From an uncultured Gilliamella sp. (GTDB lineage Bacteria; Pseudomonadota; Gammaproteobacteria; Enterobacterales; Orbaceae), in NCBI GenBank assembly GCA_946481345.1, contig CAMLMY010000005.1, positions 1-64,000 on the forward strand: 64,000 bases of DNA. The letters are read 5' to 3'. A program made the position numbers and the translations under genes. Below, in pieces: positions 1 through 8,607 of the stretch. The number at the start of each line of letters is the position of its first letter. The first letter of the stretch is position 1. The notes below the pieces were generated by a model. That model saw only the letters and a program-made list of their open reading frames with translations, was not told the origin of the DNA and did no database searches.

Positions 1-132
1 AGAAAATAAAATTATGATCAAGTCAATTATAATTACGTATAATTTTCACATGAAAGAAATGAATGTTTAATTGAATATAAGTGTTTTAAAATTAATGATT
101 ATTTTTTACTTAATGTTAACTTGTTACAAATA
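1..132. repeat. Copy A of a duplicated upstream region
   Basis: About 130 bp that align with 789-921. Both copies begin AGAAAATAAAAT, share GATCAAGTCAATTAT and TAATTTTCACATGAAA, and continue with a similar T-rich stretch containing TTTTTTACTTAA. Copy B lies just upstream of the minus-strand peptide gene at 474-692. By inference copy A is the upstream region of a similar minus-strand gene beyond the left edge of the window. Confidence 0.75.
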
Positions 133-473
133 AATAATTTGTATTGTTTAAGCAAAAGAAGATTGTTATTTGTTATTTATAAATTTTTTGATCTATTGTA
201 TTAAAGCAGATCACAAATAACTTCAATATTTCCCTTTCAAATTTATTGAGATTAAATGGCATGATAATGATAAAAACTTTTACTTTTATCATCGTGGATG
301 ATTCATATTCAATAAAACTAAAATAATTTACTATTTAATTTTATAATTTATCTATTATCAATTTTTCAAAATAAAAATGCTAAATCTCAGCTTAAGGTAT
401 ATATTTCAATTTCCTATATGGTTTTTAACAATAAAACGAGAAGCAAATCATCGCTTCCCGTTTAAGACATTAA
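133..473. other. Intergenic, no gene recognised
   Basis: AT-rich stretch between the duplicated block and the peptide gene. It holds the terminator at 434-463 and an inverted repeat (ATGATAAAA at 267-275 with TTTTATCAT at 284-292). A 39-codon minus-strand frame (173-292) has no ribosome binding site and no recognisable similarity. I see nothing else. Confidence 0.6.
434..463 (-). terminator. Rho-independent terminator of the bacteriocin-like gene
   Basis: An 11-bp stem (AAACGAGAAGC / GCTTCCCGTTT, with one G-U wobble in the minus-strand RNA) around an 8-nt loop lies 10 bp past the stop codon of the peptide gene. The sequence that follows on the minus strand is U-rich but has no perfect U tract. 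Confidence 0.6.
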
Positions 474-692
474 TTAAGGACGAAGTGTTGGGAAAGGTAA
501 GCCGATAATAGCTTCAACAACTTGACCGATACCTTGGCCTAATAATCGACCTGAATCTTGTCCAGCAGTGCTTACGTTATGATGAGCTGCATCAACAACA
601 GCACCAATACCTGCACCTAAAGCACCGCCTGCATCAGCGATCCAGCCAGCACCAGAAACTTGTTCTACTTCTACTAAATTTAATTCTTTCAT
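474..692 (-). CDS. Bacteriocin/microcin-like peptide with double-glycine-type leader
   Basis: A 72-residue peptide starting MKELNLVEVEQVSGAG. This matches the leader pattern of class II microcins and bacteriocins (ExL, hydrophobics at fixed spacing, then G-A or G-G), which are cut after the G-A by C39-peptidase ABC exporters during secretion. Predicted cleavage after residue 15 leaves about 57 residues, rich in Gly and Ala with GxxxG-type spacing, suggesting a membrane-active helix. The ribosome binding site AAGGAA lies 5-10 bases before the ATG. No exporter or immunity gene is visible nearby, so export must use a transporter encoded elsewhere. The leader is seen directly; the antibacterial role is inference. 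Confidence 0.7.
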   Translation of the reverse strand: MKELNLVEVEQVSGAGWIADAGGALGAGIGAVVDAAHHNVSTAGQDSGRLLGQGIGQVVEAIIGLPFPTLRP

Positions 693-788
693 AATGTGTT
701 CCTTTTTTCCACAATAGTTATTTTCAATATTAGAATCTAAAAAATACCATTAATACATGGTACCGTTTAAACTCATAAACATTTAAAC

Positions 789-921
789 AGAAAATAAAAT
801 TTGGATCAAGTCAATTATGATTACAGTTAATTTTCACATGAAAATAGATAACTCTTTGATTAATTATAAGCATTTCAAGGAGGATAATATTTTTTTACTT
901 AACCTTAACTTTTTTAAATAA
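789..921. repeat. Copy B of the duplicated upstream region
   Basis: This is the partner of the block at 1-132 and sits about 100 bp upstream of the minus-strand peptide gene. It shares GATCAAGTCAATTAT, TAATTTTCACATGAAA and a downstream TTTTTTACTTAA. Its position suggests that it carries the promoter or regulatory region. The remaining intergenic sequence between 693 and 1032 is AT-rich and shows no gene. Confidence 0.75.
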
Positions 922-1032
922 AAAAAATATATTTTTTGACAAAAATAGAATTATTTTTTGTATAAATACAAAATTAAACGACAAAATATTTTTTTACTTT
1001 AGCATATACGACTAAATTTCTTAAAAAAATAA

Positions 1033-1060
1033 AATATTGCTGGCAATCACCAGCAATATT
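1033..1060 (-). terminator. Terminator of the mukFEB operon
   Basis: A perfect 11-bp stem AATATTGCTGG / CCAGCAATATT with a 6-nt loop sits directly after the mukB stop codon. On the minus strand it is followed by TTTATTTTTTT, a strong U tract. Confidence 0.85.
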
Positions 1061-7884: not shown

Positions 7885-8607
7885 ATGCGTAAAATATTTT
7901 TTTTAACTCTAGTAGGATTTGCTACTTACTTTATAACTCTAAAAGTCTCTGCCCATGGTATCTGGATTGCCAATCGAGTTGATCAAAAACAGATTATTTT
8001 AGGTGAAGGCCCATTGGACAACGGTTATAACCCAGATACGGTAAAACAAATTCATGCCTACACAAACGATTGGATGCCATCATCTGTTATAAAAAAAGAA
8101 CACAGTAACTATGTGACCATTGAGCCAGCCGACAAAACATCAGTTGTGACGATTGATTTTGATTATGGATACTGGACACAAAATGCAGATGGAAAATATG
8201 TTAATTTACCCATGAATCAAGTCCAAGGCGCTAATGTTGGTATTCATGCCATAAAATATAGTGTAAATTATTTATCATCTGTTACTAACCCTAAAATCAT
8301 TAAAGATATTCCATTACAAATCGTACCTAAAATTGATCCAACAAAATTGAATCGTGGGGACACATTACCTATTACTGTTTATAAAGATGGTCAACCTCTT
8401 GCAAATGTTCCTGTAATTATTGATGTAGTGAATAATTTAGATCAAACTATAAAAACTAATAATAACGGAGAAGTTGATATTATTGTTCCTAACCAAGGTT
8501 TAAATGTCATTGGTGTTGAAATTGGTTTTCCAATTAAAAATAAAAAGTTAGCTACCCAAGATAAATTCTTCACAACCTTAGTTTTTACTTTGATACCAGA
8601 AGAGTAG
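7885..8607 (+). CDS. Fur-regulated periplasmic DUF4198 protein
   Basis: A 240-residue exported protein. The N-terminal signal peptide (hydrophobic to about residue 22) ends before AHGIWIANR, the start typical of the DUF4198 family. Members are periplasmic and often found with metal (nickel, cobalt, iron) uptake genes. A C-terminal carboxypeptidase-regulatory-like beta domain (LPITVYKDGQPLANVPVII) follows. The start has an AAAGGTGG ribosome binding site. A perfect Fur box over its promoter points to induction under iron limitation. It is monocistronic here, with no TonB receptor or ABC transporter beside it. The metal-related role is inference from family and regulation. Confidence 0.8.
   Translation: MRKIFFLTLVGFATYFITLKVSAHGIWIANRVDQKQIILGEGPLDNGYNPDTVKQIHAYTNDWMPSSVIKKEHSNYVTIEPADKTSVVTIDFDYGYWTQNADGKYVNLPMNQVQGANVGIHAIKYSVNYLSSVTNPKIIKDIPLQIVPKIDPTKLNRGDTLPITVYKDGQPLANVPVIIDVVNNLDQTIKTNNNGEVDIIVPNQGLNVIGVEIGFPIKNKKLATQDKFFTTLVFTLIPEE

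Follow-up and report, generated by a model that had tools for sequence, protein, structure and literature searches.

At the left end of the window, which is the whole stretch of 64,000 nucleotides analysed (bases 1-64000 of contig C5, which belongs to a 2.2-Mb, 97-contig, 75% complete draft genome of an uncultured Gilliamella sp.), a gene encoding a small double-glycine pre-peptide, here named mic1, is found next to mukB and downstream of a block of DNA that is repeated at the very edge of the contig. The features of this region are the following:

1-137, minus strand: upstream block of a second gene, mic2, aligned to four relatives (G034, G013, G001 and G030); the contig ends here, some 95 nt short of the mic2 start codon.
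434-463, minus strand: intrinsic terminator of mic1 with a 13-bp stem and a 4-nt loop, from the terminator scan (RNA fold z -5.8).
474-692, minus strand: mic1, encoding a 72-aa double-glycine pre-peptide, based on the open reading frame, orthologues and paralogues, a weak Pfam MccV leader match and purifying selection.
648-692, minus strand: mic1 leader, residues 1-15, within the mic1 reading frame.
733-774, minus strand: 42-nt hairpin in the 5'UTR of mic1, which folds in 10 of 10 sequences (both paralogues and the G016 gene).
780-925, minus strand: mic1 upstream block, the right-hand copy of the repeat, from pairwise block alignments and the comparison of 10 upstream sequences.
781-814, minus strand: putative promoter, TTGATC (804-809), 17 nt and TTAAAT (781-786), with invariant elements.
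1033-1060, minus strand: mukB terminator, right-hand boundary of the module, from the terminator scan and conserved in all relatives including G016.

The protein encoded by mic1 begins with MKELNLVEVEQVSGA, followed by GWI. Class II microcin leaders are characterised by a GG or GA end, a length of 15-18 residues and hydrophobic residues at positions -12, -7 and -4 (PMC11494933), and the microcin-type leader that the sequence-only reading had recognised in this 72-residue peptide fits them, with Gly-Ala at residues 14-15 and V12 (-4), V9 (-7) and L4 (-12) at the hydrophobic positions; it is near-invariant among the Gilliamella homologues. The 57-aa core contains two GxxxGxxxG motifs (G22-G26-G30 and G48-G52-G56), and both the lengths of 72-73 aa and the Gly contents of mic1 (18%) and mic2 (15%) agree with the small size and the 12-26% Gly published for class II microcins. 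The Pfam MccV family is matched weakly (17.1 bits, cut-off 27) and within the leader region only. In the AlphaFold model, of moderate confidence (pLDDT 70), two helices are predicted after the leader (15-36 and 43-64), and the fold search gave no significant match. The C-termini (PFPTLRP and FPGSVRF) have no Ser/Gly-rich end and no modification genes are located between mukB and the lepA-like gene (lepA2) that closes the locus in relatives, which speaks against a class IIb (siderophore) microcin.

The two similar blocks previously placed at 1-132 and 789-921 are real and their coordinates were correct within a few bases: segments 1-137 and 780-925 share 77% identity (98.7 bits, E 6e-22), with an ungapped core (1-55 and 789-843) that is 89% identical, and their local alignment score is 70, the maximum among 1000 dinucleotide shuffles being 24. 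The search for further copies, proposed in the same reading, returned only these two in the draft, the next best match having an E of 0.04. The window and contig C5 begin at the same base, so the left block is truncated where the assembly ends. A repeat at the contig end of such a fragmentary draft could be taken for an artefact of assembly or strain mixture, but the probability of this is negligible and it is already refuted, since the single-contig genomes G013, G001 and G030 carry the same two blocks together with two genes.

The sequence beyond the edge can be followed in these three genomes and in G034, whose mic1 protein is 100% identical to that of the window and whose DNA is 96% identical to window positions 1-536. 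All four contain a second pre-peptide gene, mic2, which is 59-62% identical to mic1, lies about 785 bp from it (the repeat period) and shares with it the promoter block, the hairpin of the 5'UTR and the terminator. The expected off-window small gene with an MKELN leader and the tandem array with common control elements are therefore both present in relatives, where the similarity is wider than had been seen from the window: the repeated unit consists of promoter block, 5'UTR, whole gene and terminator, with 74% identity over about 630 bp. The gene order in the four genomes is mukF-mukE-mukB, mic1, mic2, MFP, C39 ABC exporter and a lepA-like gene (603 aa, minus strand, in G030 as fragments only). 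A fifth relative, G016, pairs the same exporter with only one peptide gene of this family (82 aa).

Related to this, a membrane-fusion protein (MFP) of 430 aa and a C39 ABC exporter of about 700 aa directly follow the peptide gene or genes in all five peptide-carrying relatives, as in contig CAMLPV010000004.1 of G034, another uncultured Gilliamella sp. The exporter domains are complete (Peptidase_C39 with a Pfam E of 3.6e-35, ABC_membrane and ABC_tran), a Pfam HlyD domain was found for the module, and the Cys, His and Asp of the C39 domain align with those of the solved double-glycine protease 6mpz, so that the five loci contain the adjacent C39 ABC exporter with a catalytic triad that is characteristic of class II microcins. 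The MFP and TolC pair of these systems is also represented, by the MFP adjacent in relatives and an OEP/TolC-type protein encoded in the window's own genome. Of 35 Gilliamella genomes, 8 have C39 domains, the five relatives with the peptide among them; besides, a second and different pair of MFP (421-422 aa) and C39 exporter is present in G023 and G019 (loci L026 and L027). The earlier proposal that the exporter would be encoded elsewhere is contradicted by all five relatives, and the genome search suggested at that time gave a double answer: neither the C39 exporter nor other pieces of the right-hand part of the module exist in the window's own draft, whereas in the relatives the exporter adjoins the peptide. 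The fact that the incomplete assembly ends exactly there explains this absence, as an explanation and not as a proof, and that this strain has the complete system is consequently deduced from the relatives.

Regarding expression, the terminator scan found two terminators where 0.2 were expected, and the hairpin of the mic1 terminator recurs after mic2 and after the G016 gene; the terminator that each peptide gene has for itself is a strong one. TTGACTTGAT and TTAAAT are invariant in 10 of 10 upstream sequences, and an invariant TTGACT (809-814) overlaps the putative hexamer TTGATC. The assignment of TTGATC and TTAAAT as promoter hexamers is putative; the sigma-70 consensus scan did not list them and gave no excess over shuffles. 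In all ten sequences the 42-nt hairpin is located downstream of the putative -10 element and upstream of the ribosome-binding site, with 93.5% of cells paired against 32-56% for slid partners, mostly by means of G-U/A-U exchanges; covariation in these 10 sequences was not above column shuffles. Neither an Rfam match (the hairpin included) nor a tRNA was detected within the window. The hairpin may represent either an RNA element or a palindromic operator. mic1 and mic2 would each form a separate transcription unit with promoter, 5'UTR hairpin, gene and terminator, which is considered very probable as part of the general interpretation given below.

The site itself is variable. In G014, G015, G021 and G033 lepA2 starts about 100 bp past mukB with nothing between them, and elsewhere in Gilliamella the DNA after mukB varies from genome to genome; since these four genomes have the site without the module, insertion or loss of the module at a variable site is indicated. 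A second lepA-like GTPase gene follows mukB in 8 of 35 Gilliamella genomes (e.g. L021:12907-14718(-)), with remnants in G030, and its product is 50% identical to the housekeeping LepA. Beyond the mukBEF genes, window positions 7885-8607(+) encode a DUF4198 protein of 240 aa. A search in a plasmid collection gave no match.

Within Gilliamella, mic1 orthologues are 81-100% identical and paralogues about 60%. The upstream regions group by position (81-95% between mic1 copies, 83-91% between mic2 copies and 71-82% across), so the duplication predates these strains; the upstream region of G016 is only 57-63% identical overall and still keeps the invariant TTGACTTGAT and TTAAAT. dN/dS values of 0.15-0.37 for mic1, 0.09-0.68 for mic2 and 0.03-0.08 for the exporter indicate purifying selection, with a higher rate of evolution in the peptides than in the exporter. 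A dS of 0.57 separates the mic1 group from the mic2 group. The adjacency of two distinct paralogues at 4 of 5 loci, together with the invariant GxxxG positions and the precedent of CdzC/CdzD, the two-protein glycine-zipper pair of the contact-dependent bacteriocin of Caulobacter (PMC5380434), would suit a single two-peptide bacteriocin (Cdz-like or class IIb-like) in which each peptide is inactive alone. This is rather unlikely: G016 combines one peptide with the same exporter, most loci of other genera also have one peptide, and Cdz has an immunity gene of a kind not found at the Gilliamella locus.

When the 72-aa peptide was used as query the contig search gave no match, and the exporter was used instead. 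Homologues with the same leader and core adjoin exporters of 62-71% identity (loci L103, L107, L114 and L116) in Limnobaculum, Yersinia, Pluralibacter and others, mostly with one peptide gene per locus, so that the family, with its two GxxxGxxxG glycine-zipper helices, reaches Enterobacterales loci with the same exporter type. Residues including D20, G26, G30, G48, G52 and G56 are invariant in 11 homologues from Gilliamella and these genera; 9 of the 11 match Pfam MccV weakly, through the leader, and two give glycine-zipper matches. Solitary members with neither exporter nor immunity gene nearby also exist (L130, L131 and L139), two of them (L131:1441-1758(-) and L139:1318-1620(-)) being long glycine-rich double-glycine peptides encoded in two genomes of the same genus, with an hflC-like gene on one side and purA on the other. 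In Providencia stuartii (L118:3413-4634(+)) a tandem row of four double-glycine peptide genes, of which two encode identical proteins, lies upstream of a C39 exporter that is 44% identical to that of Gilliamella, and in an uncultured Enterobacterales MAG (L108:4347-4580(+)) a double-glycine peptide of low Gly content (3%), unlike known microcins, is encoded between two C39 exporter genes.

Taken together, the locus is very probably of class II microcin type, an insertion flanked by mukB and an accessory lepA-like gene and made up of tandem mic1 and mic2, a CvaA-type MFP and a CvaB-type C39 exporter; it is highly likely to work like a class IIa microcin locus. As deduced from the family, the C39 domain of the exporter would cut the pre-peptides after Gly14-Ala15, the glycine-zipper cores of 57-58 residues would pass through the fusion protein and TolC, and the exported cores may kill close relatives by acting on their membrane. 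The contig would simply end inside the mic2 upstream block.

The remaining question concerns self-protection. A class II microcin is usually accompanied by a cognate immunity protein of 51-216 aa, in most cases membrane-bound, encoded nearby. All intergenic ORFs were listed and compared in 12 loci (5 of Gilliamella and 7 of other genera), and no conserved immunity ORF was found either within Gilliamella or across the genera, the small ORFs common to several genera being only antisense shadows of the peptide gene; the earlier remark that no immunity gene is visible thus extends to all 12 loci. Four individual candidates lack conservation: an ORF of 57 aa on the minus strand ahead of the MFP in G034, two of 49 and 62 aa in the interval from mic1 to mic2, and a TTG ORF of 42 aa past the exporter. 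LepA2 as a self-protecting target copy was discarded as well, given that lepA2 is intact in the module-free genomes G014, G015, G021 and G033 and that in G030 the module occurs beside nothing more than lepA2 remnants.

Known microcin immunity proteins share no sequence similarity and divergent ones can be missed (PMC9746304), and it is thus quite possible, at somewhat longer odds than even, that this bacteriocin has an immunity gene too small, divergent or unlinked for recognition. The 62-aa ORF of G030 (6713-6901 in L024), with one helix and split counterparts in G013, and the 42-aa TTG ORF, 95% conserved in G034, G013 and G001, point in this direction, but the former is disrupted or missing in the window as well as in G013, G001 and G034, all with an intact mic1, and the latter is truncated in G030 and would not fit into G016, where the gap measures 237 bp. 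On the other hand, exported signals or surface or aggregating peptides that are not toxins would need no immunity gene, in keeping with its absence from loci of several genera and with the solitary family members. Such a role is improbable, because presence or absence at a variable site and fast peptides beside slow exporters are typical of weapons, and no receptor or regulator gene is linked. It is also doubtful, though conceivable, that these peptides represent a glycine-zipper double-glycine family spread across Enterobacterales and Orbaceae with dedicated C39 exporters and no immunity gene, controlled in Gilliamella by the conserved 5'UTR hairpin, whose producers survive otherwise (exporter-based protection, a two-peptide requirement, target difference or contact-restricted action).

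Gilliamella is a core gut symbiont of honeybees and bumblebees whose strains are highly diverse. A microcin module that varies between strains would let them compete by diffusible means, in a way open to testing, within a simple gut community, and with no immunity gene recognisable, how producers protect themselves can be tested directly. Judged from its genes, the putative microcin-type locus is a weapon locus of a common sort that stands out chiefly by the lack of a recognisable self-protection gene beside it. The literature search found no report of a Gilliamella microcin, the known Gilliamella RiPP being a different, thiopeptide-like cluster, and Orbaceae are not mentioned in two main genomic surveys of microcins (PMC11494933, PMC9746304).

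In comparison with known systems, the putative class II microcins of Limnobaculum, Pluralibacter and other Enterobacterales (L103, L107, L114, L116, L130 and L131) share the leader and the glycine-zipper core, and differ from Gilliamella in their usually single peptide gene and a longer amphipathic C-terminal tail. Double-glycine peptide bacteriocins without an immunity protein, as cited in PMC10233263, are known from Bacteroides; compared by description, they resemble this locus in their leader and in the lack of an immunity gene, although they belong to another phylum. Cdz of Caulobacter (PMC5380434), also compared by description, combines one to three small glycine-zipper peptides, including a peptide pair, with a type I exporter, and the Gilliamella locus likewise has GxxxGxxxG zipper peptides and a type I exporter; its peptides differ in having a double-glycine leader, and no gene for a CdzI-like three-helix immunity protein is found at the locus. 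Another close likeness is to class IIa microcins such as MccV (colicin V, with CvaA/CvaB), which share the 15-residue leader ending in GA with hydrophobic residues at -4, -7 and -12, the Gly-rich core, the adjacent MFP and catalytic C39 ABC exporter, and TolC in trans. Unlike MccV, the Gilliamella locus has no recognisable immunity gene, its host belongs to the Orbaceae, its core is unrelated by sequence and it contains two tandem paralogues, each with its own promoter and terminator. The tandem class II microcin-type locus with an MccV-like leader and exporter is new and is filed as a variant, full membership being withheld because the immunity gene is missing and killing is putative.
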